A stretch of DNA of 21,869 bases from a virus. The notes below the pieces were generated by a model. That model was given only the letters and a program-made list of their open reading frames with translations. It was not told the DNA's origin and did not search any database. Location: IMG/VR virus record IMGVR_UViG_3300042460_000499, positions 1-21,869 of that record; one strand, 5' to 3'. Both the position numbers and the translations under genes were made by a program. Shown here piece by piece: positions 3,951-21,869 of the stretch (position 1 is its first letter; each line of letters opens with the position of its first letter).

Positions 3951-4364
3951 ATGACAACTCAAATTGATTTAAACAAGTACGCAGATTTTGTTCTTACTGT
4001 AGCGTCGGAACCTAGCAAGGATGCAGAAACATTTGTAGAGCATGTTCGTAAGCTACACAACAACAGCCGTGTTAATATCCCGTTGCTACTCACTTCGGGT
4101 ATCGGTCTTGCTAGTGAAGGTGGAGAGTTCAACGAAATCGTGAAGAAGATTTTCTTTCAGGGTAAGCCCCTCAACGAAGAAAACATCTTCCATATGAAGC
4201 GTGAACTAGGCGATATTATGTGGTATTGGATGAACGCTTGTAACGCACTCGGTCTTGACCCTAACGATGTTATTGCTGAAAATGTGAGCAAGCTAGAAGC
4301 ACGTTATCCAGGTGGCGAGTTTGATGCTCACTACAGCGAGAACCGCAAAGAAGGTGACTTGTGA
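3951..4364 (+). CDS. mazG: MazG-family nucleoside triphosphate pyrophosphohydrolase
   Basis: The 137-aa product has the all-alpha NTP pyrophosphatase signature: EGGEFNE with E56, E59 and E62 on one metal-binding helix, and ELGDIMWY with E85 and D88 on the next. The C-terminal KLEARYPGGEFD block is characteristic of phage MazG. The family hydrolyses NTPs or dNTPs to NMP and pyrophosphate. Phage versions have been proposed either to recycle host nucleotides or to affect (p)ppGpp, and the latter has been questioned biochemically for cyanophage enzymes. The ATG at 3951 follows an AAAGGA site and lies 11 bases after the upstream stop. The TGA stop overlaps the GTG start of the ACP-like gene, so the two are probably translationally coupled. 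No key acidic residue appears missing. Confidence 0.92.
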   Translation: MTTQIDLNKYADFVLTVASEPSKDAETFVEHVRKLHNNSRVNIPLLLTSGIGLASEGGEFNEIVKKIFFQGKPLNEENIFHMKRELGDIMWYWMNACNALGLDPNDVIAENVSKLEARYPGGEFDAHYSENRKEGDL

Positions 4365-4660: not shown

Positions 4661-5446
4661 ATGGCAGCAGACCTTTTAGCGACACCAAATAATCAAGACT
4701 TAATTGAGTATAAGCAAGGACTCTTTGAGAACCTTCGTCTACGTATGGGCGGCGACATTGTTGATCTAGAATTAGATCCTCAGCACTACGAAGCAGCATA
4801 TAACTACGCTATCAAGCTTTACCGCCAAAGAGCGCAAAACGCTAACATCGAATCCTACACTCTCTTCACCGTACAGAAGAACGTGTATGAATACACGTTG
4901 CCCAGCGAATTCATCAACGTAAGATCCCTGTTCAGACGCACAGTAGGGCTTGAGACAGGTCCAAGTTCAACGTCATTTGACCCGTTCTCAAGTGCAATTC
5001 TCAATACCTATCTACTGAATTATAACTATACCGGTGGTCTTGCTACATACGATTTTTATGCAGGCTACGTAGAACTTACAGCACGTATGTTTGGTGGTTA
5101 TCTTACATATACCTTTAACCCGGTTAGTAAGTTGCTAAAGGTCACTAGAGACTTCAAAGGAACCGGCGAACGCATTCTTATTTGGGCAGATGTACAGCGT
5201 CCTGAACTAGAATTGCTACAGGATCCTGGCGCAGGGGTTTGGATTGGCGACTATATCCTAGCAGTGCTTAAAGGCATCATTGGTGAAGCTCGTGAGAAGT
5301 TTCAATCAATTGCAGGTCCTGGTGGCGGAACGTCACTGAATGGTGCTGCTATGAAGGCTGAATCCAAAGCAGACCAAGAGCGATTGATAATGGAATTGAA
5401 AGCCTACGTAGATTATTCACAGCCTCTCACTTGGGTACAAGGTTAA
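4661..5446 (+). CDS. T4 gp13-like neck protein (head closure)
   Basis: The 261-aa product has features I associate with gp13 of T4-like phages: an N-terminal helical part with LRLRMGGDIVDLELDPQHY and AYNYAIKLYRQR, a central YEYTLPSEFINVRSLFRR segment, and the C-terminal LAVLKGIIGEAREKF followed by the glycine-rich AGPGGGTSLNGAAM block. T4 gp13 is 309 aa. With gp14 it closes the packaged head and forms the tail attachment site. Here it is 2.2 kb from, and on the opposite strand to, the gp14-like and gp15-like genes, unlike T4 where 13-14-15 are adjacent. Start ATG 4661 is chosen for the CAGGAAA ribosome site 10 bases upstream and the late promoter before it. Its stop is only 3 bases before the -35 of the kinase promoter. 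Confidence 0.78.
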   Translation: MAADLLATPNNQDLIEYKQGLFENLRLRMGGDIVDLELDPQHYEAAYNYAIKLYRQRAQNANIESYTLFTVQKNVYEYTLPSEFINVRSLFRRTVGLETGPSSTSFDPFSSAILNTYLLNYNYTGGLATYDFYAGYVELTARMFGGYLTYTFNPVSKLLKVTRDFKGTGERILIWADVQRPELELLQDPGAGVWIGDYILAVLKGIIGEAREKFQSIAGPGGGTSLNGAAMKAESKADQERLIMELKAYVDYSQPLTWVQG

Positions 5447-5449
5447 GGC

Positions 5450-5478
5450 TTGACAACACTCACTTCTTATGTTATAGT
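5450..5478 (+). promoter_or_regulatory. Sigma70-type early promoter P3 (dNMP kinase)
   Basis: TTGACA 5450-5455, 17-base spacer, TATAGT 5473-5478, the same hexamers and spacing as P2. With a standard 6-base discriminator the first RNA base is 5485, the A of the kinase start codon. Confidence 0.8.
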
Positions 5479-5484
5479 GTAAGA

Positions 5485-6120
5485 ATGATAATAGGAATAA
5501 CAGGACTTATCGGTAGCGGCAAAGATACAGCCGCTGACTATCTTTGCACATTTCACGGATTCAAGCGTATGAGCTTTGCTGGCACGCTTAAGGATGCTGT
5601 TGCAGTTATCTTTAACTGGGACCGTGAACTTCTTGAGGGCTCAACTAAAGCCAGCCGAGAATGGCGAGAAGAAGTTGACACTTGGTGGGCAGAACGATTG
5701 GGCATCCCCAATCTGACTCCCCGCTGGGTTCTACAACAGTGGGGAACAGATGTTGCCCGCAAAAGTTTTCATAATGACATTTGGGTAGCAAGCGTAGAGA
5801 ATCGTTTGCAGGGCATTAAGGATGATATCGTAATCACTGACTGTCGGTTCGGCAACGAAGTAGCCGCTATCAAGAATGCAGGTGGTATCACTCTTAGAAC
5901 TCATCGTGGTAAGGATCCTGATTGGCTTGTAATAGCAGAATTGCATAATGATGCGGATAACGACAAAGATAAAACATATCTTAAAGACCTGCTAGAACAG
6001 AATCATAATGTTCATGCTAGCGAATATAGCAGTGTTGGGCTAGACTACGATTACCACATTGACAATAACGGAATGATTGACCATCTACACAAGCAGATGG
6101 AATCAATAATCAACCGTTAA
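5485..6120 (+). CDS. Deoxynucleoside monophosphate kinase (T4 gp1-like)
   Basis: The 211-aa product starts MIIGITGLIGSGKDT, a P-loop (GLIGSGKDT, residues 7-15) right at the N-terminus as in T4 gene 1 kinase. Further family-like blocks are SFAGTLKDAVA, TPRWVLQQWGTDVAR and the VITDCRFGNE segment. The enzyme phosphorylates dNMPs to dNDPs in the cytoplasm, feeding phage DNA synthesis. A reading frame extends upstream to 5431, but that would overlap gp13 and place the promoter inside the gene. The ATG at 5485 puts the P-loop in the expected place. There is no Shine-Dalgarno sequence before it, and the predicted transcription start coincides with the ATG. Its 3' end overlaps the convergent HNH-type gene by 18 bases. 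Confidence 0.9.
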   Translation: MIIGITGLIGSGKDTAADYLCTFHGFKRMSFAGTLKDAVAVIFNWDRELLEGSTKASREWREEVDTWWAERLGIPNLTPRWVLQQWGTDVARKSFHNDIWVASVENRLQGIKDDIVITDCRFGNEVAAIKNAGGITLRTHRGKDPDWLVIAELHNDADNDKDKTYLKDLLEQNHNVHASEYSSVGLDYDYHIDNNGMIDHLHKQMESIINR

Positions 6121-6599: not shown

Positions 6600-9500
6600 A
6601 TGGCACTAGTATCTCCAGGTGTAGAAGTTACAGTAATCGATGAGTCTCAGTATCTTCCAGCCCCAACCAACACAATCCCTCTTATTGTGCTTGCGACTGC
6701 TCAAAACAAAGCTGATCCTACTGGAACAGCAGTAGCAGTTGGCACAACAGCCGCTAACGCCGGCAAGCTCTATCAGGTTACTAGCCAGCGTGATCTAGTC
6801 ACTCTCTACGGTACTCCATTCTTCTACGAAACTACAAACGGTACACCGATTCAGGGTTACGAACTCAATGAATACGGTCTGCTTGCTGCTTACTCTGCAC
6901 TAGGTATTACTAACCGTGTATTCACTATGAGAGCAGACATTGATCTTGCAAGTCTTGTAGGTCAAACAGGACGTCCTACTGGTAACCCAGACAACGGTGC
7001 TTACTGGCTCGACACTACGACTTCAACTTGGGGTATCTATGAATTCGATTCAACAACTGGTCAGTTTGTATTACAATCTCCAATCGTAATCAGTTCTGCT
7101 GATCAAGTTACCGGTCATGTTCCTATTCCTAGCGTAGGACAAATAGGTGATTATGCAGTTGTTGCAATTCCTACATACGATTATCCAAGTGCATCTACTG
7201 CAGGAATGTTCTTCTATAAGACACCTAGTAATGAATGGGTACGTATTGGATCAGCAGACTGGGCTAATTCTTGGCCAACAATTCAAGCTTCAGAGGCTGA
7301 CCCAACATTGACTGAAGGTGATGTATTGACTCTTAACATCAACGACCAATATGTGTTAGAAGTCGAAGTCGATGAAGCGCCAAACAACACAGTAAGCGTT
7401 ATGGCAGCAGCTATCAATGCATTTGATTATCCATTCATCTCAGCAGATGTTATCGGTGGCAAGCTTGTTATCTATTCAGCACAGTTTAATCAACAGTATA
7501 GTAATACGGTCCCGTTCATTACTGCATCAAGTGCTTCAGAAACACTTTTGGCTGATTTAGGAATTTTGGAAACCCCCTATTATGAAACAAGTCTGTTTTT
7601 AGGTGTAGCTTCTCAGCAGCCACTATGGCAAGCTGGACAAACTACCCCTCGACCATCAGGCTCAGTATGGATCAAAATTGGTGCTGCAGGCAATGGATTA
7701 GACTCTGCAATTTCAGAGTGGAACTCTACTACTTCTTCTTGGGTTCCTAAGACAGTAAGCTATAGTCGTTCAGATTGGCTAGCAATTGCTGGGTCAGATG
7801 CAGGCGGCGGGAAAAATATTCCGGCAGGAACTGTTTACGGACAGTACTACTTCAATAGCGGCGGCACTATTTATAACGGGGTAGTTCCTAATTCTTACAT
7901 ACAAGCACCAGTATATTATTGGGAAAGAATTGCAACTGGTCCAACTGTTATTACTGGTTCGGTGTTGAATCCAACGTTCACTAACGGACCATACACTGTT
8001 TCAGTGAATACTACTATTCCAGGAACATCAGCACTGTCCTCAACTTACACAGTGACCATTCCAGACAATGCTACTACAACTGACGTTGTTACTGCTTGGT
8101 CTGCTGCCGGAATTCCTTTCACTACTTGTACTGTTACAGATTCCGATGCGTTGCAACTTACTCACACTGAGGGCGGTTGCATTATTCTAGAAGACATTAG
8201 TGGCGCTGGAGTCAGTAACGGTTGGATTCAAGAAGCAGGCTTCATCATTGGAACTACAATCGGTGTTAAAGAAGGACCATTCGTAGTTACTAATTATCAA
8301 CCGACGGCATCATCAACTACTGGTGTAGGTACTGGTCTACAGATTAACGTACAAAACTACTATCAAACTTACTTGATTAATCCAACTTCGTTTGCAAATG
8401 ACGGAAGTGGTTATGCAGTAGGTGATGAGGTAACGTTCTTAGGATCTGCATTAGGTGGAGCTTCACCTACTAATGATTTGATTTGTGTTGTTAATGCAGT
8501 CAGTAGCGGTAACGTAACAGAACTCGTTTATAAGAGTGGTTCAGGCGCACTTGAGTATTCTACTTGCTTGTCAAACTGGGTAGAGTTTGAAATGACCGCT
8601 AATGAAGGTGCTCCGGTTGAGGCTCCGGTAAACAATACTAATTGGTTCTTCTCAGTAATTGACGAAGTTGATATTATGGTCAACACTTCAGCAGGATGGC
8701 GCGGATATAAAAATACCAATTACGATAGTAGTGGTTTCCCTCAGCCAAGCGGCTCTAATGCAACTGATCCTAACGGACCACTAGTAAGCGCAAGTGAACC
8801 AACGACTCAGAGCGATGGTACTGCACTCGTATACGGTGATATTTGGATTGATACAAGTGATCTTGAAAACTATCCAATCATCAATCGTTGGCAGTCAGTA
8901 GACACTGTTGATAGATGGGTTCTTATTGACAACACCGATCAGACAGGTTCTACTGGTGTATTGTTTGCTGATGCACGTTGGGCAACTAACGGAACTACGA
9001 ACCCAGCTAACGATCCGATTCCATCAATCACAAGCTTGCTAACTAGCAACTATCTTGATTTGGATGCTCCGTCAAACACTGCGTATCCGGTAGGTATGCT
9101 ACTGTTTAACACTCGTCGTTCAGGCTATAACGTTAAGCAGTATCGTGTAAACTACTTTAACAACGACACCTTCCCTGATGAAACTCTACCAACAGAGAAG
9201 GATGCATGGGTAACGGCAAGTGGTCTACAGTCTAACGGTTCTCCTTATATGGGTCGTAAGGCACAGCGTAACATGGTAGTTCAGGCACTAAGATCAGCAG
9301 TTGACACTAACACTGCAATTCGTGATGAAGATAATACTTTCAACCTCATTGCTTGCCCCAACTATCCTGAACTTCAGCCTAACATGATTGTGTTGAACGC
9401 TGACCGTGGAGAAACAGGATTCATTATCGGTGATACTCCAATGAGACTCCCGGATGATGCTACAGCAATTCAAGCATGGGCAACTAATGCTGCTGGCGCA

Positions 9501-10193
9501 ACATCGACTGGCGAAGAAGGGCTAGTATCTCGCAGTACTTATATGGGTCTATTCTACCCAAGCGGTATTGCACCGGATTTGGATGGCAATTTAGTTGCAG
9601 TTCCTTCATCACACATGATGATCAGAACAATTCTTCGTAATGACAACGTTGCTTATCCTTGGTTTGCACCAGCTGGTACTCGTCGCGGCATCATTGATAA
9701 CGCAACTAATATCGGTTACTTAGATGCAATAACTGGTGAATTCCAAGTAATTAAGACTAGAATCGGTATTCGTGACGTATTGTACGTGAATCAGATTAAC
9801 CCAATGGTCTTCTTCACTGGAAACGGATTGCTTAACTACGGTAACAAGTCAAGCTTTGCATCAAATTCTGCACTTGACAGAATTAACGTTGCAAGACTTA
9901 TTGCTTATATCCGTAGACAGCTAACTGTTGCTGCTCGTCCGTTCGTATTCGAACCAAATGATTCGATTACAAGACAGCAGATTGCAGGTGTTGTGGAAAC
10001 TCTAATGGTCGACCTAGTCGCTAAGAGAGGTCTCTATGACTATCTTGTAGTTTGCGATGAGTCAAACAACACACCAGCCCGTATCGATAGAAACGAACTT
10101 TGGGTAGACGTTGCAATTGAACCTGTTAAGGCAATTGAATTCATCTACATTCCGGTTCGTGTTCTTAACACCGGTGAGTTGAGCGGCGCATAA
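6600..10193 (+). CDS. Tail sheath protein, T4 gp18-like, with large internal expansion (1197 aa)
   Basis: The N-terminus (MALVSPGVEVTVIDES...) and the C-terminal 320 residues are typical sheath: YPWFAPAGTRRGIIDNA, the DVLYVNQINPMVFFTGNGL block, RLIAYIRRQL and the final EFIYIPVRVLNTGEL. The sheath polymer contracts to drive the tube into the cell. T4 gp18 is 659 aa; here about residues 120-870 form a long Thr/Ser/Asn-rich, beta-predicted insertion between the conserved ends, with several GxxW...W motifs and a GYAVGDEVTFLGSALGG module near 604. The frame is open upstream to 6468, but the ATG at 6600 is chosen because it has an AAGGA site 10 bases before it, lies downstream of the late promoter, and gives the conserved MALVSPGVEV start. 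A weak hairpin terminator follows. Confidence 0.95.
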   Translation: MALVSPGVEVTVIDESQYLPAPTNTIPLIVLATAQNKADPTGTAVAVGTTAANAGKLYQVTSQRDLVTLYGTPFFYETTNGTPIQGYELNEYGLLAAYSALGITNRVFTMRADIDLASLVGQTGRPTGNPDNGAYWLDTTTSTWGIYEFDSTTGQFVLQSPIVISSADQVTGHVPIPSVGQIGDYAVVAIPTYDYPSASTAGMFFYKTPSNEWVRIGSADWANSWPTIQASEADPTLTEGDVLTLNINDQYVLEVEVDEAPNNTVSVMAAAINAFDYPFISADVIGGKLVIYSAQFNQQYSNTVPFITASSASETLLADLGILETPYYETSLFLGVASQQPLWQAGQTTPRPSGSVWIKIGAAGNGLDSAISEWNSTTSSWVPKTVSYSRSDWLAIAGSDAGGGKNIPAGTVYGQYYFNSGGTIYNGVVPNSYIQAPVYYWERIATGPTVITGSVLNPTFTNGPYTVSVNTTIPGTSALSSTYTVTIPDNATTTDVVTAWSAAGIPFTTCTVTDSDALQLTHTEGGCIILEDISGAGVSNGWIQEAGFIIGTTIGVKEGPFVVTNYQPTASSTTGVGTGLQINVQNYYQTYLINPTSFANDGSGYAVGDEVTFLGSALGGASPTNDLICVVNAVSSGNVTELVYKSGSGALEYSTCLSNWVEFEMTANEGAPVEAPVNNTNWFFSVIDEVDIMVNTSAGWRGYKNTNYDSSGFPQPSGSNATDPNGPLVSASEPTTQSDGTALVYGDIWIDTSDLENYPIINRWQSVDTVDRWVLIDNTDQTGSTGVLFADARWATNGTTNPANDPIPSITSLLTSNYLDLDAPSNTAYPVGMLLFNTRRSGYNVKQYRVNYFNNDTFPDETLPTEKDAWVTASGLQSNGSPYMGRKAQRNMVVQALRSAVDTNTAIRDEDNTFNLIACPNYPELQPNMIVLNADRGETGFIIGDTPMRLPDDATAIQAWATNAAGATSTGEEGLVSRSTYMGLFYPSGIAPDLDGNLVAVPSSHMMIRTILRNDNVAYPWFAPAGTRRGIIDNATNIGYLDAITGEFQVIKTRIGIRDVLYVNQINPMVFFTGNGLLNYGNKSSFASNSALDRINVARLIAYIRRQLTVAARPFVFEPNDSITRQQIAGVVETLMVDLVAKRGLYDYLVVCDESNNTPARIDRNELWVDVAIEPVKAIEFIYIPVRVLNTGELSGA

Positions 10194-10261: not shown

Positions 10262-10900
10262 ATGGCGACAGCCTCACAATCATTGTTCAACATGACCGTA
10301 GCATCTGATAACGCAGGCGGCAACCAGGGTCTGTTGATGCCTAAACTACAGTTCCGCTTTAGAGTCAATTTTTTGAACTTTGGGGTTGATTCCGACAGTG
10401 GACTTCAATTGACTAAGCAAGTTATAGATTGCTCAAGACCAAACGTCTCTTTCGCTGAAATTCCAATTCAGATTTACAACTCAACGCTAAAGTTAGCAGG
10501 TAAGCACACTTGGGCGGATATGTCAGTCAACATTCGTGACGATGCATCCGGAACCGTTTCGAAAGCAGTTGGTCAGCAGTTGCAAAAGCAACTTGACTTC
10601 GTTGAGCAGGCATCTGCTGCAACTGGTCAAGACTACAAATTCCAAACAAACGTTGAAATTCTCGACGGTGGTAACGGCGCACTAGCTCCTACTGTTCTTG
10701 AAACTTGGGAACTATATGGCTGCTTCTTGAAGTCAGTTAACTATAACGCACTTAACTATGGTACTTCAGAAGCAGTAACAATGGCACTTTCAATCGCCTA
10801 CGATAACGCAGTTCAATCACCTCTTCAATCAGGTGTTGGTACTTCTGTTGGTCGTGCATTCGGTGGCGCTTCTGTTACAGGTATCGGCGCTACTACCTAA
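10262..10900 (+). CDS. Tail tube protein, T4 gp19-like
   Basis: The 212-aa product sits directly after the sheath, as gp19 does in T4 (163 aa). It shows the tube-protein pattern: an N-terminal beta region LQFRFRVNFLNFG, the loop CSRPNVSFAEIPIQIYNSTLKLAG, then WADMSVNIRDDASG and a closing ETWELYGCFLKSVNYNALNY with strands to the end. Hexamers of the protein stack to form the rigid inner tail tube. It has its own late promoter and a strong CAGGAG site 6 bases before the ATG, allowing high expression apart from the sheath. The Gly/Ser-rich C-terminal tail (QSGVGTSVGRAFGG...) is probably flexible. The assignment is strong from context plus pattern. Confidence 0.9.
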   Translation: MATASQSLFNMTVASDNAGGNQGLLMPKLQFRFRVNFLNFGVDSDSGLQLTKQVIDCSRPNVSFAEIPIQIYNSTLKLAGKHTWADMSVNIRDDASGTVSKAVGQQLQKQLDFVEQASAATGQDYKFQTNVEILDGGNGALAPTVLETWELYGCFLKSVNYNALNYGTSEAVTMALSIAYDNAVQSPLQSGVGTSVGRAFGGASVTGIGATT

Positions 10901-10916
10901 TAATTAGGACAAATTA

Positions 10917-12152
10917 ATGTCACTAGGAAATTGGGGTCAAAGTTTATTACAGGACGCTGCCGGAGCTTTCTTCGGCAGCGACTACCTCAGAGACTATACC
11001 CACGCTTCTAAAACATTCAGAACGAATTCGTATCAGAATGCACCGAAGCTTAAATTTCTCTTTCATACATATTTTGATATCAACCCCGATGCATATTCCG
11101 GCGAAGGGAACTACGGGTTATTGGTTAAAGAAGTAAAGTTGCCCTCATTTAGTGTTCAAACTCAGCAGCTAAACCAATATAATAGAAAACGTATCGTGCA
11201 GACTAAAATAAGATACGAACCTATTGAAATAACATTCCATGATGATAATAACAACCAAGCCACAAAGCTTTGGGAAGCATATTATACTTACTACTACAAT
11301 GACGCTAATAAACCAGGCATAGTATTTGCTGGCAATAGAGGCGGCTCCGGTAGTTCAAGTGGTAAATCATACAACAGTAATAATATATATGACACTTCAA
11401 TCAGCGGCGATGATGATTGGGGCTTTACCGGAGGCTCTACTAGTAACGACGGTAAAAAGATTCCATTCTTTAAGAATATCACTGTATTCGGATTCAATCA
11501 ACATAACTTTACCGCATACTCGTTAGTAAATCCTGTCATAACCTCTTTCGGTCATGACACATATAACTACTCTGAAGGCGGCGGCGTCATGCAGAATAGA
11601 ATGACTATCGACTATGAAACGGTAGTATACAACTACGGTGCATTAGATGGTAGAACACCTGGTGATATTGTTACAGGATTCGGAGACACTGCAAACTACG
11701 ATACAGCGGTAAGCCCTATCTCTGCACCCGGTGCAAATGGTACTATACTGGGTCAAGGCGGACTTGTTGATGCAGTGGGTGGAACTATTGAAGCATTAGG
11801 CGAGGGCAATATTTTGGGCGCTATTAAAACTGCTGGAACAGCTTACAACACATTTAAGAATATTAACGTAAAAACTACGGTAAAAGCAGAATTAGATGCA
11901 ATGCTCAGAAATACAATTCAAAATACTCCAAACGCTAGAAATACGTTGTTTGATTTCCCAACTGCCGGTATGAGCCCAGGAACTGTAGGTACAGCCGGAG
12001 CACCCGTTATTGGCGCACTTACTCAGCCTCCAGCAGTTAACACTAACTTAACTACAGCCGGAACTCAATATAACGGTGCAAACCTAGTTAATCCCCCATT
12101 CTTCTCTGGATTCACGAGTGAACCAGAATTTACGGGTACAACGATAGTTTAA
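10917..12152 (+). CDS. Tail tube-like or baseplate tube-initiator-like structural protein (411 aa)
   Basis: The N-terminal 130 residues and residues 190-250 look like a tube-type beta fold: KLKFLFHTYFDIN, LLVKEVKLPSFSVQTQQLNQ, RKRIVQTKIRYEPIEITFHD, then NPVITSFGHDTYNY and the MTIDYETVVYNYGAL closing strands. A Gly/Ser/Asp-rich loop (about 140-185) interrupts the fold, and about 150 residues of Ala/Gly/Thr-rich sequence follow. T4 gp48 and gp54, which start the tube on the baseplate, share the tube fold, so a tube-initiator or terminator role is plausible. A virion protein of unrelated role with the same fold is the alternative. The ATG has a TTAGGA site upstream and lies 16 bases after the tube gene. 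No late promoter is evident between them, so the two are probably co-transcribed. Confidence 0.7.
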   Translation: MSLGNWGQSLLQDAAGAFFGSDYLRDYTHASKTFRTNSYQNAPKLKFLFHTYFDINPDAYSGEGNYGLLVKEVKLPSFSVQTQQLNQYNRKRIVQTKIRYEPIEITFHDDNNNQATKLWEAYYTYYYNDANKPGIVFAGNRGGSGSSSGKSYNSNNIYDTSISGDDDWGFTGGSTSNDGKKIPFFKNITVFGFNQHNFTAYSLVNPVITSFGHDTYNYSEGGGVMQNRMTIDYETVVYNYGALDGRTPGDIVTGFGDTANYDTAVSPISAPGANGTILGQGGLVDAVGGTIEALGEGNILGAIKTAGTAYNTFKNINVKTTVKAELDAMLRNTIQNTPNARNTLFDFPTAGMSPGTVGTAGAPVIGALTQPPAVNTNLTTAGTQYNGANLVNPPFFSGFTSEPEFTGTTIV

Positions 12153-13491: not shown

Positions 13492-14121
13492 ATGCGCAGT
13501 TTAAAACAATATATCGTTGAAAGTGTTCACACTTACAATTACACTATTAAGGTCGCCGGAAACGTTGATAAGAACTTCCTTGACATGTTCAAGTTCAATC
13601 TAAAGAAGTTCGATCCTATCAAGATTTCTGATCCGGTATCTACTCCTATTCAGAAAAGCCCATATGGTTTTCCTGATCTAGTGAACGAACCAGTTCACAT
13701 CATTAAAGCAGAGTTCCGTTATCCTGCTACTGAACCAATGATTCAGCAAATTGCGCAGTTGCTAGGATATAATGTAAACATGGTTCGTGTTGTCAGTACA
13801 AACTTTGATGATAGTATCAATAGTGAGAGTGAAGGCTACGCTAACGAAGCTTCACATAGTCCTGTACTAGATCACACAGAACTTGAAGAACAGCCAGGCG
13901 CTAAGGAAGCTGCTAAGGCATATGGCAATAGCTATCTTGATAGCATCAAAGACCAAATGAAAGACAACACAATTGATATTCCTTACGAAGGTAAGAAGAC
14001 TCCAAATGCGTTTGATCCTTTTAAGCCAGAAACACAAATGGCAACAATGGGCAAAGAAAGCCCAATGAGCAAGATTACTCGTCCTGCTAAGCCACAAACA
14101 GGCGCAATGGGAGGCAGATGA
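13492..14121 (+). CDS. Virion-associated protein with capsid-targeting-like N-terminus (209 aa)
   Basis: The N-terminus MRSLKQYIVESVHTYNYTIK resembles the MKTYQEFIAEA-type targeting peptide that brings internal proteins into T4 proheads. I-V-E at residues 8-10 fits the (L/I)-x-E cut rule of the T4 prohead protease. Residues 15-105 look like a mixed alpha/beta domain (IKVAGNVDKNFLDMFKFNL, PVHIIKAEFRYPATEPMIQQIAQLLG, NMVRVVSTNF). The remainder is hydrophilic, Pro/Lys/Glu-rich and probably disordered. I recognise the sequence type from T4-like phages but know no function. It has a late promoter and AAGGAT site, and its TGA overlaps the ATG of the 1115-aa gene (ATGATGA), so the two are translationally coupled and may act together in the head. 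Confidence 0.7.
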   Translation: MRSLKQYIVESVHTYNYTIKVAGNVDKNFLDMFKFNLKKFDPIKISDPVSTPIQKSPYGFPDLVNEPVHIIKAEFRYPATEPMIQQIAQLLGYNVNMVRVVSTNFDDSINSESEGYANEASHSPVLDHTELEEQPGAKEAAKAYGNSYLDSIKDQMKDNTIDIPYEGKKTPNAFDPFKPETQMATMGKESPMSKITRPAKPQTGAMGGR

Positions 14122-17100
14122 TGAAAGACATTATGCAAAAGCTAGCTGAATTAGAAGCTACAGCACCTAAGGTAACGAAGAAGAAAATGTTGAATGAAGA
14201 TTCGACTACTCCTCCTATCAACGTTTCTAATAAGATTGCATCACTGAAGGATATGTTTGAAGCACTTTCTGAAAGTATTCCTGCAGGCGCAAAGCCTCTT
14301 CCTGTATTAGATCCGCAGAATAAGCAAGCTGGCATGGGATTTGTTACAAGCAATAATCCTGCCGTTCAGAACATGCTTAAGGCTCTAGATCCTAAAGATG
14401 TTCAGATTGTTCAAGCTCCAGGTCAACCAGGACAAGCTCCGGCAGCAGGTCAGCCTGCTCCAGCTGGTGCAACTGGACAACCTCAAATGGGTCAGATGCA
14501 GATGAAAGAAAAGAAGCTTGACGAACTATCACCTAATCTATTAAGTAGAGCAAGCATAGAGGCGGGTAAAAGACAATCGGCAGCGGCAGGAACTGTCATC
14601 AACTCCCCGCTAACTGACCCGTTCAGTTTCGAGATAGGTAATTTTCCTGAATTTGTAAGATCAACAAAGTCAGCAAAGATGTTTATTGACAGAGGTTTAT
14701 TAACTCCGGATACTGCTGTGACCGTTACCCCGGGCGGCGGCGAGCGTAGAATACATACTCAGGCTAAGAAAATACCCGAGTTAAAGGATTTGTTCGGAAA
14801 CGAAAGAATTGGACCGAGCAAATTTTGGGGTAAAAAAGTAGATAAATTTAATGCTGCCGCAAAGAAAGCAACTTACAGAGACCAAGCTAAGGCACAAACA
14901 GCTAATATGAGTCCTGCTCAAAAGCGCCAATATGATGCTATGATTAAATCTGGCGAACTTGCGGAAGCACAGCTTGACGAACTCTCACCTGAACTATTAG
15001 GTAGAGCAGCCGATAAGGCATTTCGCCAAGGTTTGGATTTACGGGGCAAGGCATTTGATCGGGGCCAAAAGGTGAAAAAAGAGATAGGGTATGGGCGTGA
15101 GGAGTTAGATGTTGACCCTTCCACTCCTTTAGGAAAAGCAACAAAGGCTAGATTTAACCAATATGATAAATTTATGGCCGGGGGACTTAAAGCAGAAAAA
15201 AGAGACCAAGAGCGTGAAGATTTAAGACAGGCGACCGCAGATTTAAGCCCTGCAATGAAGCGTAAATTAGGGCTTGGTGAAGGTGCAAAAGTTGATCGTA
15301 TGGTCAAGCACATTGAAAAGTCTGAAAAGAAATTAGGCAAGTCAAAAGGCGAAGCAGAAGATATTGCATGGGCAACTGCTAACAAGCGCGGTATGCTTGA
15401 CAATAAGAATAAGAAAAAAGTTAAAGAAGGCGACATCCCGTCGTCATCCGGAGTCGATACTAAGGGTGCTGGCTTAGGCGCAGGCCGTAGTGCAACAACA
15501 TTAGAGGGTAAAGAGTCTCAGGTTGAAGTTATCGACAATGCATTTAACAGAGAAAACTACAAAGATTTGATTGGTAAGAAATATCCTAAATCAAAGGCTC
15601 CTGCATATGCTAGAGTAAAAGAAGTTAATGAAGGTAAGAAGCCAGACTTCTTAGACCTAGACAAAGATGGTAACAAGAAAGAACCAATGAAAAAGGCAGC
15701 AGCCGACAAGAAAAAGAAAAAGGTAGATGAATCCATGAATCACAGAATTAGTGCAGCCCGCTTAGAGGGCAAATCACACGGTCTAAGAGGTCACGCACAC
15801 TCTGGCAAAAGATACGAAGACCTAGAAGAAATGAAGGCATATCACGAGGGCTACAAAGAAGGTCTTGATGAGTGCTATGGTCAGGGCGTGTATGAAACTG
15901 CTCCAGCAATGCCAGCAGCAACAGTTCCTGGTATGGCAGATGCTGCAATGGAAGAAGGCAAGCTCGGTAAAGCTGTGGCAGGCGCCGCTCTTGCTGCTAC
16001 ACTAGGCGCAGGCGGTATGATGGCAAAGGGTGCTTATGACTATCATAAGAAAGATCCTGCAGTCGGCATGTCAAAATACGACATGGATAGAATGGCTGGA
16101 AGAGATTTCACTAAAGAAGACGATATGGAAGAAGGCAATGCTTTCACCGCAGCACTTGCAAAGACTCCAAAGGGCGGTAAGTTTGCAGTAGGTGGAAAGA
16201 CTTTCACTGACCGTACAGGATACGATGCTAAAGTAAACGAATATGCGTTTGAATCACTCGACCAGCAGCTTAATGCACTTCTAAACGAGAGCGAAGAAGT
16301 AACTGAAGGTCTGTCAGTTTCAATCTCAAAGGGTCAGCAGAACTCACCTGACTCAGTAACTATCACTGCACAAGATGCAGAAGCAGAACATCTACTTGCA
16401 TTTGTAAAGAACGCAGGTCTTGGTCTATTCGGTGATGACAATGCTGACACACATTCAAGTGCAATGTCAGTTCAACCTTCACACGGTGCACCTGACGAAG
16501 TTGGAGCTGGCGGAATTGATATCGGTGTAGTTGACGGTCATGATGGTATGATGGGCTTGATGCAGAAATTATCAGGCATTCAATCAGTCGGCGCCGATGA
16601 CTATGCTGACGAAGAAGGCGATGAAGAACAACTTTATGGTAATCATCAAGCAGCCGATAAGAAAGATTGCGGATGTGACGGCGATTGCGAATGCAGTGAC
16701 TATGATCAACCCTCTAACGAAGCAACTTGCAACGAATGCGGAACATATGAAGGTGTGCATGAAGCAGGCTGTTCAATGGGAAGCGGAAAAGAAATGGTTG
16801 ATGAAGTAGAATCAGAAGACCAAATGGAATTTGAAGTAGCAGAAGACAATGCTCCTGATTCAGGTGAGGCAGAATCAACTGCTGATGAAAACGCAGAAGC
16901 ATCAGAGGATATGGCACTAGCTAAAGCAGGTTCAAAGGGCGGCACTTATACTGTTAACGAAGATGGCGACGAAGCAAGTGAAGAAGGTCCTGAAAGCAAA
17001 GAAGGCGAAGGCGATGAAGGAGCTGAAACTGTTTCAGAATCATTCGCTAATCTTTTCAGAAAACTTTCGTTCATTGCTGAAGAATCAACTGAAAAAGAAG

Positions 17101-17465
17101 ATGACAAAGCCGAAAAAGCAGGCAAAAAAGTAGCTAAAGATATCGAACATGACGAAGGTCATACGGGTAAAGACGACGACAAGGCCGAGAAAGCTGGAAA
17201 GAAAGTCACTAAAGACATCGAATACGATGACAAGAAAGACAAGAAAGAAAAAGTTGATGAGTGGGCTAACAACGCTGGTCCAGGAAAGACTGTATCTGAC
17301 ACTACTTTTGAACAAGATATTGACTTCATGACTAAAGTAATTGCTGGTGGTCTTAACAAGCCTAAGTCAACTGGTCAGACTACTATTCCTGTCATTGCAG
17401 GTCAAGATGACCGTATGCACGATAATCCAATGGATTGGGCAACTCTTGCAGGTATTAAGAAGTAA
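14118..17465 (+). CDS. Giant modular acidic virion-associated protein (1115 aa)
   Basis: No single family is recognised. Modules in order: an N-terminal helix (MKDIMQKLAELE); a Pro/Ala/Gln-rich linker near 100-130; two copies of a DELSPxLLxRA motif (about 133 and 285), each followed by an RDQ...SPAxKR segment; KHIEKSEKKLGKSKGEAEDI near 397, followed by the phage-common WATANKRGML; PDFLDLDKDGNKKEPMKKA near 508, with a DxDxDG loop; a Gly/Ala-rich hydrophobic stretch near 614-640; a VTITAQDAEAEHLLAFVKNA domain near 740-765; a cysteine cluster at 851-885; then a Glu/Asp/Lys-rich tail with two DDKAEKAGKKVxKDIExD repeats. It may be a scaffold, internal head or decoration protein. ATG 14118 overlaps the previous stop; ATG 14121 is equally possible. 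A strong terminator follows. Confidence 0.75.
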   Translation: MMKDIMQKLAELEATAPKVTKKKMLNEDSTTPPINVSNKIASLKDMFEALSESIPAGAKPLPVLDPQNKQAGMGFVTSNNPAVQNMLKALDPKDVQIVQAPGQPGQAPAAGQPAPAGATGQPQMGQMQMKEKKLDELSPNLLSRASIEAGKRQSAAAGTVINSPLTDPFSFEIGNFPEFVRSTKSAKMFIDRGLLTPDTAVTVTPGGGERRIHTQAKKIPELKDLFGNERIGPSKFWGKKVDKFNAAAKKATYRDQAKAQTANMSPAQKRQYDAMIKSGELAEAQLDELSPELLGRAADKAFRQGLDLRGKAFDRGQKVKKEIGYGREELDVDPSTPLGKATKARFNQYDKFMAGGLKAEKRDQEREDLRQATADLSPAMKRKLGLGEGAKVDRMVKHIEKSEKKLGKSKGEAEDIAWATANKRGMLDNKNKKKVKEGDIPSSSGVDTKGAGLGAGRSATTLEGKESQVEVIDNAFNRENYKDLIGKKYPKSKAPAYARVKEVNEGKKPDFLDLDKDGNKKEPMKKAAADKKKKKVDESMNHRISAARLEGKSHGLRGHAHSGKRYEDLEEMKAYHEGYKEGLDECYGQGVYETAPAMPAATVPGMADAAMEEGKLGKAVAGAALAATLGAGGMMAKGAYDYHKKDPAVGMSKYDMDRMAGRDFTKEDDMEEGNAFTAALAKTPKGGKFAVGGKTFTDRTGYDAKVNEYAFESLDQQLNALLNESEEVTEGLSVSISKGQQNSPDSVTITAQDAEAEHLLAFVKNAGLGLFGDDNADTHSSAMSVQPSHGAPDEVGAGGIDIGVVDGHDGMMGLMQKLSGIQSVGADDYADEEGDEEQLYGNHQAADKKDCGCDGDCECSDYDQPSNEATCNECGTYEGVHEAGCSMGSGKEMVDEVESEDQMEFEVAEDNAPDSGEAESTADENAEASEDMALAKAGSKGGTYTVNEDGDEASEEGPESKEGEGDEGAETVSESFANLFRKLSFIAEESTEKEDDKAEKAGKKVAKDIEHDEGHTGKDDDKAEKAGKKVTKDIEYDDKKDKKEKVDEWANNAGPGKTVSDTTFEQDIDFMTKVIAGGLNKPKSTGQTTIPVIAGQDDRMHDNPMDWATLAGIKK

Positions 17466-17569: not shown

Positions 17570-20500
17570 ATGGCTCAGCGCAATATTGATTTTGGTACAT
17601 TTCCCAACGACCCAGATGCAGATGCAATTCGCACTGCATTTGTAAAGACGCAGGAAAATTTCTCTGAACTTTTCTCTGGATTACAAGATCAGGCCGTACT
17701 TTCTATCAGAGAGGGTGCCGGTATAACGGTTAATGCACCTACCGGAAATGTGGAAATAACTGCTAATATAGCGCAAGTCAGTGTTCAATCTAGTACTCTT
17801 AATATGGGAATCGGTTCAGCTGGTAGCACTTTACCTGCCGCAGCCACGTTAACTACATCAGCCCAAACCCTAATTATTGAATTACCTGCAACGGTAAACT
17901 CAATTGCAAATCTAAACGTCTCTAATACTATAACATCAAACACTGTAAACGTTGCCCTTACCATCAACGGTAATGTAGCAAGTTTTTCAGGAGCACTATC
18001 AGCCGCTAGCATCACAACCGGCGGCAATGCAAATGTCACCGGAAACGTTAATGCAGGCAATATCAATGTAGGCATAGGAAACTTTACAGGTAACATCAAT
18101 TCACTTAATGCTAACTTGGGTAATCTTGCAAATGCTAACAACTTAACAATTTCATCTACTGCAAATATCGGTGGAAACTTAACTTCTGCAAATGCTAACT
18201 TAGGTAATTTATCAGTAGCTAACTACTTTTCAGGTGATGGTAGTTTACTAACGAATGTTGTGGCGGCACCAGGTAATATAATATTAAACAGTAACAGTAA
18301 TGTTTCTATACCTACAGCAAACAGTAGTGTATTCGTCAGTGTTGCAGGTACTGCAAATGTATTAGTAATTAGTCAGACTGGAATAAATGCAAACGGTACT
18401 GCTAACTTTACTGGTAATCTGTCTGCTGCTAACGCTAATTTAGGTAATGCTGCAAGTGCCAACTACTTCATTGGTAACTTCTATGGTACTGCAAACTCGG
18501 CAACTACGGCAACAACTGCTGGTACAGTAACAACCGCTGCTCAACCAAACATCACTAGTGTTGGTACGCTTACATCATTAGGCGTAAGTGGTAACATTAC
18601 TGCCGCAAACATCACTGCTAACACAGGTGTCTTCACTGGCAATGGTAGTGGACTAAGTGCAATTGCAGGTGCAAATGTCACTGGCACTGTAGCAAGTGCG
18701 ACCGCAGCTACTACTGCTGGTACAGTAACGACCGCAGCACAGCCAAACATTACCTCAGTTGGTACTCTCACTTCGCTTGCTGTTACAGGTAATGCAAATG
18801 TTGGTAACTTAAATGCAACAACTGCGGTAATTGCAAGTACCCTAACTTCAAATGTCACAACTGGTACTGCTCCTCTTGTAGTTACCTCAACAACTCGTGT
18901 AGCTAATTTGAATGTTGATTATGCGAATGTTGCAGACTTCATTAGCGTAGCTGCTGGAACAGGTAATAACTTCATTATTTTTGCAAACGCAGCTACCGGA
19001 AATATAGCAGAAGTAACAAGCACTGGTCTCATTGCTAACTTATCTAATAACTCAATTACAGCAACTACATTTGTTGGTGCATTAAGCGGTGCAGCAACAA
19101 GTGCAACTACTGCTGGCACTGTAACAACAGCAGCACAGCCCAATATCACATCAGTTGGTACATTAACGAGCTTGGATGTAAGCGGTACTGTTACTGCTGC
19201 AAACATCACAGCAAATACAGGCGTGTTTACTGGTAATGGTAGCGGCCTGTCACAACTCGCCGGTGCTAACGTAACTGGTACAGTAAGTGCTGCTACAACA
19301 GCGGGTACAGTAACAACAGCGGCACAACCAAACATTACAAGTGTTGGTACATTAACAAGTTTAGGTGTCACTGGGAATATCTCATCCGGCAATGCTAATT
19401 TAGGTAATGCTGCAACTGCTAACTTCTTCATTGGTAGTGGTAATAATTTATCTAATATCCAAGGAGCAAACGTTACTGGAGCAGTAGCATCAGCAACTAG
19501 TGCTACAACAGCCGGCACAGTCACTACAGCAGCACAACCGAACATTACATCAGTCGGTACACTAACATCATTGGGTGTTAATGGCAATATTACTGCTGCA
19601 AACATCACAGCAAATACAGGCGTGTTTACTGGTAACGGTAATGGCTTGAGTTCTATTGTAGGCGCTAATGTTACTGGAACGGTATCAAGTGCTACAACGG
19701 CAACTACAGCAGGTACAGTAACAACAGCCGCTCAACCTAATATTACGAGTGTCGGAACTCTTTCATCACTGTCAGTTACCGGTAACTTAGCATCAGGTAA
19801 TGCTAACTTAGGTAATCTTGCTAAAGCAAACTTCTTCCAAGGTGATGGTAGTTTATTAACGAACATTTCTGTCGGAGCAGGTAGTTATATCGAAAACGGA
19901 AACTCTGAAGTAAGAGTTGATGCTAATAGTAACATAAGAGTTACTGTAGCCGGTAATGCGAACATACTGGTCGTCACTGGAACTGGCGCCAACATTACCG
20001 GTACTGCAAATATAACAGGTAACTTGTCAGCAGGAAATATCTCAACTGGATTGGTAACCGGAACATTAACTGCGGCAGCAGCTACTCAATCTAATATTAC
20101 GGCATTAGGAACACTAAGCGGTTTAACTATTGCGGGTGTAACTAATTTAGGACCCAACAGCAATGTCATCATCAGCGGTGGTGTCAGCGGGGCATTCTTA
20201 CAGACAAACGGTTCCGGAAACTTAGCGTGGAATACTGCAACTCTTGTTCCGGCTCAGGGTACTGATACACAAGTTATCTTCAACGACGGTGGTTCAACTT
20301 ATGCAGGTAATGCTAATTTAACGTTTAACAAAGCGTCTGGCGCGTTAGCTGTAGGTGGGAATTTAAGTGCCGCTAACGCTAACTTAGGTAACGCTGTTAC
20401 TGCTAATTTCTTGACCGGTACACTAAGAACTAATGCTCAGACTAATATTACAAGCATAGGAACTTTAACATCACTGACCGTTAACGGAAACATCAATGCG

Positions 20501-21869
20501 GGCAACGTATCAGGTGGCAACACAGTAAGTGCCAACTTCGTAGCCGGCACATTGACAACTGCTGCTCAACCTAATATCACAAGCCTTGGCACTCTCACTG
20601 CGTTAGGCGTAAACAATACTATCACTGCGGCAGCATTTACAGCTAACACCGGGGTATTTACTGGTAATGCTAATGGACTAAACAATATTCCTGGTGCTAA
20701 CGTAACTGGTACTGTAGCAAATGCAACGTTTGCAACTACGGCCGGATCAGCAACAACAGCCGGTACAGTAACTACAGCAGCACAGCCCAATATTACTAGT
20801 GTAGGTAGTTTAACTTCTCTTATTGTTAGCGGTAATGTCAACGCAGGAAACATCACTTCAACCTTAGTAGGCGGCACGTTAACTACTGCGGCACAACCTA
20901 ATGTTACAAGCGTTGGAACACTAACATCATTGACTGTTACTGGAACTGCTACAGCAGGTAATCTATCAACCGGTGGTACATTAAGTGTTACCGGCAATGC
21001 TAACGTAGGTAACTTAGGTACAGGTGGACTTATTGTTGCAACAGGTAACGTATCAGGTGGTAATCTAACTACCGGTGGTGTAGTCGTTGCAACTGGTAAT
21101 GCTAACGTAGGTAACTTAGGTACTGCGAGGGTAATTGCTACGGGAAATATCAGCGGTACTCAACTAATCAGTAATATTGCTACCGGTACTGCTCCTTTTG
21201 TAGTTACATCAACTACTCAAGTAGCAAACTTGAGTGTTGCTACTGCTGGTTCGGCAACTACAGCAGGTACAGTAACAACAGCCGCTCAACCCAACATCAC
21301 ATCTGTTGGAACATTGACCGTTCTATCTGTTAACGGCACTGCAACAATTACTACAGGTAACGTCACTACTATTAACAGTGGATTGATGCAGAACGGTAAT
21401 AGTAACGTTACTATTACTGCTAATGGCAACGTTACATTACACGCGGTAGGTGGAGCAAGAATTATTGCTACATCAACCGGAGCAAACATTACTGGCACGT
21501 TAGGTGTAAGTGGTAATGCTAACGTACTAAACTTAGGTACTGCACAGGTACTCGCAACTGCTAACGTGATTGCTCCGCAATTAATCAGTAACGTAGCAAC
21601 TGGTACTGCTCCTCTTATTGTTACTTCTACAACTCAGGTTGCAAACTTGAATGCTGCTACTGCCGGTACTGCAACTACTGCCGGCACAGTAACAACTGCT
21701 GCACAACCAAATATCACTAGTGTTGGTACGCTAACATCATTAGGTGTTACTGGCAATATCAGTGCAGGTAATGTGAGTGCAACAACATTCACTGGTGCGT
21801 TGACTGGCGCCGCAACTACTGCTGGTACAGTAACAACTGCTGCTCAACCGAATATTACATCAGTTGGTA
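17570..21869 (+). CDS. Giant repeat-built tail fibre/virion adhesin-like protein (partial, at least 1433 aa)
   Basis: I translated the frame from ATG 17570 line by line and found no stop to the window edge. The start MAQRNIDFGTFPNDPDADA with AIRTAFVKTQENFSELFSGL is a typical N-terminus of marine T4-like fibre or structural proteins. From about residue 310 the protein is built of Gly/Asn/Thr/Ala/Val-rich repeats centred on TAAQPNITSVGTLTSL, with linking blocks NITANTGVFTGNGSGL and GANVTGTVASAT. Near residues 865-905 a module AFLQTNGSGNLAWNTATLVP...TQVIFNDGGSTYAG, common in phage fibres, interrupts the array. Low charge and regular beta-prone repeats suggest a long trimeric beta-helical or beta-spiral shaft; the receptor-binding tip would be beyond the window. 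It is first in a unit after a strong terminator. Confidence 0.85.
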   Translation, partial: MAQRNIDFGTFPNDPDADAIRTAFVKTQENFSELFSGLQDQAVLSIREGAGITVNAPTGNVEITANIAQVSVQSSTLNMGIGSAGSTLPAAATLTTSAQTLIIELPATVNSIANLNVSNTITSNTVNVALTINGNVASFSGALSAASITTGGNANVTGNVNAGNINVGIGNFTGNINSLNANLGNLANANNLTISSTANIGGNLTSANANLGNLSVANYFSGDGSLLTNVVAAPGNIILNSNSNVSIPTANSSVFVSVAGTANVLVISQTGINANGTANFTGNLSAANANLGNAASANYFIGNFYGTANSATTATTAGTVTTAAQPNITSVGTLTSLGVSGNITAANITANTGVFTGNGSGLSAIAGANVTGTVASATAATTAGTVTTAAQPNITSVGTLTSLAVTGNANVGNLNATTAVIASTLTSNVTTGTAPLVVTSTTRVANLNVDYANVADFISVAAGTGNNFIIFANAATGNIAEVTSTGLIANLSNNSITATTFVGALSGAATSATTAGTVTTAAQPNITSVGTLTSLDVSGTVTAANITANTGVFTGNGSGLSQLAGANVTGTVSAATTAGTVTTAAQPNITSVGTLTSLGVTGNISSGNANLGNAATANFFIGSGNNLSNIQGANVTGAVASATSATTAGTVTTAAQPNITSVGTLTSLGVNGNITAANITANTGVFTGNGNGLSSIVGANVTGTVSSATTATTAGTVTTAAQPNITSVGTLSSLSVTGNLASGNANLGNLAKANFFQGDGSLLTNISVGAGSYIENGNSEVRVDANSNIRVTVAGNANILVVTGTGANITGTANITGNLSAGNISTGLVTGTLTAAAATQSNITALGTLSGLTIAGVTNLGPNSNVIISGGVSGAFLQTNGSGNLAWNTATLVPAQGTDTQVIFNDGGSTYAGNANLTFNKASGALAVGGNLSAANANLGNAVTANFLTGTLRTNAQTNITSIGTLTSLTVNGNINAGNVSGGNTVSANFVAGTLTTAAQPNITSLGTLTALGVNNTITAAAFTANTGVFTGNANGLNNIPGANVTGTVANATFATTAGSATTAGTVTTAAQPNITSVGSLTSLIVSGNVNAGNITSTLVGGTLTTAAQPNVTSVGTLTSLTVTGTATAGNLSTGGTLSVTGNANVGNLGTGGLIVATGNVSGGNLTTGGVVVATGNANVGNLGTARVIATGNISGTQLISNIATGTAPFVVTSTTQVANLSVATAGSATTAGTVTTAAQPNITSVGTLTVLSVNGTATITTGNVTTINSGLMQNGNSNVTITANGNVTLHAVGGARIIATSTGANITGTLGVSGNANVLNLGTAQVLATANVIAPQLISNVATGTAPLIVTSTTQVANLNAATAGTATTAGTVTTAAQPNITSVGTLTSLGVTGNISAGNVSATTFTGALTGAATTAGTVTTAAQPNITSVG
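18542..21869 (+). repeat. In-frame degenerate repeat array in the fibre gene (12 clear and 2 decayed copies)
   Basis: Cores encoding QPN(I/V)TSVG(T/S)L, one with TSLG, start at 18542, 18740, 19136, 19325, 19535, 19733, 20567, 20783, 20894, 21287, 21704 and 21845; weaker copies are at 20087 and 20438. Many steps are near 198 bases (66 residues) or twice that. Copies differ mostly at synonymous third positions. Confidence 0.88.

Follow-up and report, generated by a model that had tools for sequence, protein, structure and literature searches.

A survey of 112 modelled sheath proteins of phages by Evseev et al. (2022) found additional domains that lie away from the tube, many of them Ig-like, in numbers that rise with genome size; adhesion, the formation of appendages or stabilisation were proposed as their roles (PMC9230969). 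The table of that study includes, with five or more domains, the sheath of Atu_ph07 (1086 residues) and sheaths of 1248 and 1283 residues from metagenome phages (PMC9230969). A lateral, FliD-like domain is present in the sheaths of Pseudomonas phage Adele and related phages, where it reportedly takes no direct part in contraction; the fold that it has in common with FliD, flagellin and nozzle proteins was stated in 2025 (PMC12846349). What the outer domains of sheaths do has been a question since the T4 studies. Here, we analysed a viral DNA of 21.9 kb (21,869 nucleotides; referred to as the window), a fragment of a phage genome, which encodes a sheath of 1197 residues. Its closest named counterparts, from genomes of 287–490 kb, are the sheaths of the jumbo phages Phosso (1091 residues), Atu_ph07 (1086), Vibrio 2.275.O (990), SCTP-2 (955), RaK2 (888), CBB (884) and PA5oct (879). 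T4 gp18 has 659 residues.

The sheath gene and its surroundings

An open reading frame on the plus strand runs uninterrupted from an ATG at position 6600 to a stop at 10193 and encodes 1197 residues, beginning with MALVSPGVEV. The protein matched the PHROG tail sheath profile phrog_10581 (E 2e-216), and residues 1088–1187 matched Pfam PF17482 (Phage_sheath_1C) above the cut-off (E 7e-14). By sequence and structure model, it is the contractile, gp18-like tail sheath of a jumbo-type phage and kin to those of Atu_ph07, Phosso, PA5oct and RaK2. Its gene is the only one for a sheath subunit that we found within the window, and a sheath 68% identical to it is encoded on a contig of 244 kb. A previous, sequence-only reading had described a protein of almost twice the T4 length, and the ratio is indeed 1.82 (1197 versus 659 residues). 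An assembly artefact or a fusion of genes could be ruled out because 36 more intact, full-length relatives, on contigs from viral metagenomes, are just as long; a search for relatives among cellular genome contigs gave none that could be confirmed.

The sheath gene lies directly upstream of tail tube genes starting at 10262 and 10917. The first (10262–10900, plus strand) encodes a tube protein of 212 residues (phrog_4542, E 1e-49), the second (10917–12152, plus strand) a larger paralogue of 411 residues (phrog_13438 and phrog_4542), which stands in tandem with the smaller copy and has additional sequence past the tube domain. Phosso likewise has two annotated tube genes. Immediately 5' of the sheath gene is a gene for a deoxynucleoside monophosphate kinase (5431–6120, plus strand), and such a kinase is encoded directly upstream of the sheath, or one gene off, in RaK2, CBB and Phosso. 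The structural region also holds a gene for a MazG-type nucleotide pyrophosphohydrolase (3951–4364, plus strand). On the minus strand, 716–2440 encodes 574 residues, the first ~290 of which have matches among jumbo-phage proteins annotated as structural components of the virion, while the remainder is unmatched. Downstream of the tail genes, two large plus-strand reading frames encode 1115 residues (14118–17465) and at least 1433 residues (17570–21868, exiting the window and containing tandem repeats at 20732–21699); tblastn of both against 50,697 phage records gave no match for either.

Contractile core and middle domains

A first structure model, built on an alignment of 37 sequences, reached a pLDDT of 64, with a good middle but a poor core; a second model, built on an alignment of 89 environmental sheaths, took its place. 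Two sequences, L053 and L067, were excluded from the alignments since they carry stop codons within the matched stretch in one frame. The second model has a mean pLDDT of 84 and is low only at residues 1–23, 1082–1091 and ~1149–1197; the low-scoring ends are the terminal arms, by which adjacent subunits are connected in solved sheaths. Because 300–335 residues superposed on solved sheaths of T4-type phages, pyocins, extracellular injection systems and phiKZ (Z 17–30, best 29.7), we place a core of ~320 residues in two pieces, at residues ~22–117 and ~869–1189, with the split point taken from the secondary structure of the model and from sequence alignments. These borders agree with the conserved parts proposed from sequence, residues 1–120 and 880–1197. 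The N-terminal arm and first core half (residues 1–117; 6600–6950, plus strand) matched all 65 sheaths compared and superposed on the solved cores. The second core half and C-terminal arm (Phage_sheath_1C; residues 869–1197 and the stop codon; 9204–10193, plus strand), recognised by PF17482 and by superposition, aligned with T4 gp18 residues 478–648 (E 9e-34, with the 65 sheaths compared). Such a core would be expected to assemble as a contractile helical sheath that holds the tube and contracts via its terminal arms.

The core halves are separated by ~750 residues, which in the model and in fold searches form several distinct beta-rich domains outside the contractile core, as the sequence-only reading had anticipated. 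The ~750 residues that it took to be inserted do lie between the core halves, but the net excess over T4 is only 538 since T4, too, has non-core, projecting domains in this place. The proposed start of the conserved C-terminal part at residue 880 is right for the universal core; among nearer jumbo sheaths, however, this part begins near 640, because residues ~640–880 are common to jumbo-phage sheaths of 879–1091 residues at 34–46% identity (in BLAST segments that continue into the C-terminal core). The Ser/Thr/Asn content of the middle is higher, though only modestly so (0.24–0.34 versus 0.19–0.22). Counting the main one, model and fold matches give at least three domains, the number by which Evseev et al. 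(2022) define type 3 sheaths. By analogy with solved and modelled sheaths, in which such additions are placed away from the tail tube (PMC9230969), we expect the middle domains to project outward as an outer shell on each tail ring, without driving contraction, so that five or more extra beta-rich domains probably coat the tail exterior.

Three parts of the middle contain GxxW-type beta segments, at residues 118–222, 333–446 and inside 668–800. The first, a1 (residues 118–222; 6951–7265, plus strand), begins with a P..P.xGxYWLD motif, was present in 64 of the 65 sheaths and is modelled with a pLDDT of ~90; a2 (residues 333–446; 7596–7937, plus strand) was present in 62 of the 65. A beta-rich region with two further P..GxxW-type motifs (residues 668–868; 8601–9203, plus strand) is conserved through RaK2/Atu_ph07/PA5oct-type sheaths. 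The bare GxxW motif, noted before as a repeat, occurs at chance level (3 seen versus 2.0 expected, p 0.34), whereas the extended motif P-x(2-14)-G-x-x-W-hydrophobic is above chance (p 0.003). As the extended motif is found throughout the family of jumbo sheaths, we rejected GxxW as a repeat specific to the insert.

Two further domains, b1 (residues 226–332; 7275–7595, plus strand) and b2 (residues 447–556; 7938–8267, plus strand), resemble exposed parts of flagellar filaments. The former is a beta-sandwich with one helix, of the flagellin-IN or FliD D2–D3 type, and matched FliD (5fhy, VIA Z 8.7); the latter is flagellin D2-like and matched flagellin FlaD (9n8a, VIA Z 9.2; flagellin D2 range Z 9.2–9.6). 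Single-domain VIA Z values of 8–10 are only slightly above background; the matches have an rmsd of 2.5–2.8 across 93–98 residues, and podovirus nozzle domains rank next. Pfam PF07196 (Flagellin_IN) did not match b1 or b2 of the window itself, but the Phosso equivalent of b1 exceeds its cut-off and 13 of 40 b1 orthologues matched. Flagellin D2 and D3 are the outer, exposed domains of the flagellar filament. The fold is common to b1, b2 and the D2/D3 domains of flagellin and FliD (Flagellin_IN); we see no evidence of a flagellar function in the sheath, and this is an exposed-domain fold shared by unrelated filaments.

In hhalign, b1 and b2 were homologous with 97.3% probability (E 2.4e-11). A tree of 40 b1 and 40 b2 copies separated the two positions fully, with zero copies misplaced, indicating that the duplication predates the radiation of the compared sheaths. 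Duplication of one a+b double module found no support, as only b1 and b2 are clearly homologous (97%; a1–a2 21%, a2–a3 53%).

Domain g (residues 557–667; 8268–8600, plus strand) is the GSGYAVGDEVTF module. With the 65 sheaths, the GYAVGDEVTFLGSALGG module aligned with T4 gp18 residues 102–168 (E 3.4e-4), and a PDB-scale search with g gave eight weak matches (E 0.1–0.5), five of which were T4-type gp18 chains. Parts of other virion proteins, including baseplate wedge proteins, resemble it too. Of 36 close sheaths, 34 contain the domain; it was absent from all seven isolate jumbo sheaths compared, while 53 more distant environmental sheaths have a linker in its place, mostly of 20–28 residues and at most 42. 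The GYAVGDEV module, which the sequence-only reading counted among the additions, is missing from less close jumbo sheaths, though it resembles T4 gp18 102–168. To judge by its sequence, g looks like a mobile virion-protein module acquired within the clade of the window.

Selection and possible roles of the outer domains

All 37 full-length close sheaths have 1142–1208 residues. The core halves had dN/dS values of 0.04–0.10 by either summary; b1, a2, b2 and g had 0.13–0.28, with the maximum in b1, the fastest-evolving and least conserved domain, at two to three times the core rate. The highest pN/pS over any 25-codon window was 0.49. At the level of these codon comparisons, the whole protein is under purifying selection that is relaxed in b1, a2, b2 and g, and shows no diversification. 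The diversifying regions that the sequence-only reading had suggested seeking among close relatives did not appear, and a region of receptor variation is rejected at the level tested (dN/dS and 25-codon pN/pS). That reading had also held that full-length conservation in all relatives would count against it: the 37 close sheaths are indeed alike in length, but those of more distant jumbo phages lack defined domains and are correspondingly shorter.

These results bear on the idea that the outer domains form an adhesion or receptor layer, binding glycans of the host envelope or capsule so that the tail would already lie along the cell when the fibres engage. Weak carbohydrate binding is ascribed to Ig-like virion domains and has been proposed for sheath domains as well (PMC9230969); the poor conservation of b1 and the exposed position of flagellin D2/D3 would fit such a layer. 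However, a Pfam search of every segment for a carbohydrate-binding family found no match, and there was no diversifying selection; the fold search was compatible with such a family. The extra receptor layer envisaged earlier is therefore weakened, the region being non-diversifying and the length and architecture constant among close relatives, and we consider it unlikely. A more specific version, in which two D2/D3-type domains and the GYAVGD module per subunit make a flagellin-like coat and thereby, over the full tail length, a receptor layer for glycans of the host or the environment that is distinct from the fibres, strikes us as very unlikely.

The outer domains might instead be near-neutral accretions, tolerated owing to their outside position and a large genome. 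Sheaths tend to have more domains in phages with larger genomes, the outer domains of T4 were supposed to be nonessential (PMC9230969), and b1, a2, b2 and g evolve faster than the core. Yet purifying selection acts throughout, with dN/dS only up to 0.28, and a search for loss of b1 or b2 among close relatives found none. Moreover, each sheath subunit is present in many copies per tail, making extra domains costly. We regard accretion of this kind as quite unlikely.

Docking of decoration proteins such as tail whiskers, a role that Evseev et al. suggested for extra domains (PMC9230969), appears decidedly unlikely here. CBB and phAPEC6, of the same broad sheath group, do bear tail whiskers (PMC5259590, PMC7247149), but those of phAPEC6 sit at three tail rings only and not on every subunit (PMC7247149), and Atu_ph07, with its 1086-residue sheath, has mainly capsid-borne whiskers (PMC6102473); both observations disfavour docking. 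In addition, CBB has tail whiskers and yet a smaller sheath, of 884 residues.

We favour, as the probable reading, a jumbo-type sheath whose outer shell is mainly structural, weakly adhesive or protective, and not a host-specific receptor layer. The core would grip the tube and contract, and the middle domains would form an external shell, making the tail of a large virion thicker and more stable by contacts among adjacent subunits. The shell surface might provide weak, non-specific adhesion or protection rather than host-specific receptor binding. The rate of b1 could reflect a changing partner and counts against a structural shell. Such a sheath may have grown stepwise, from an architecture shared by jumbo-phage sheaths, via duplication of the sandwich domain in the lineage of more than 1,000 residues, to a gain of the GYAVGD module in the clade to which the window belongs.

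Comparison with known sheaths

The find itself is not surprising. What is new amounts to refinements: an exact map of the domains, the b1/b2 duplication and its old age, and a module resembling part of T4 gp18 that only one clade gained. They chart the domains of a sheath protein that ranks among the largest and give a stepwise order for the growth of such sheaths, and a deletion series on the outer domains is therefore easy to design.

T4 gp18 shares the core (Z ~25–30 for T4 and T4-type sheaths) and, at residues 102–168, a segment resembling g, but is 538 residues shorter, has no detectable b1 or b2 and carries the g-like segment elsewhere in the chain. The sheaths of RaK2, CBB and PA5oct (879–888 residues) share the core, residues ~640–880 and the GxxW motifs; they are ~310 residues shorter, and the two IN-type domains and g were not detected in them by sequence. 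Closer still, the sheaths of Atu_ph07 and Sinorhizobium phage Phosso share the core, the GxxW segments and two FliD/flagellin-IN-type domains, with 40–46% identity over the C-terminal half, but lack the ~90-residue GYAVGD module and have a much diverged middle. Type 3 sheaths likewise combine a split core with several, often beta-rich, additional domains. Those domains point away from the tube, a placement that would extend to the window sheath by homology only. Type 3 sheaths have up to 1283 residues (phage LacPavin_0818_WC45). Oversized, multi-domain sheaths are thus already known in the jumbo-phage group, and the sheath of the window is essentially an ordinary, well-resolved example of them.
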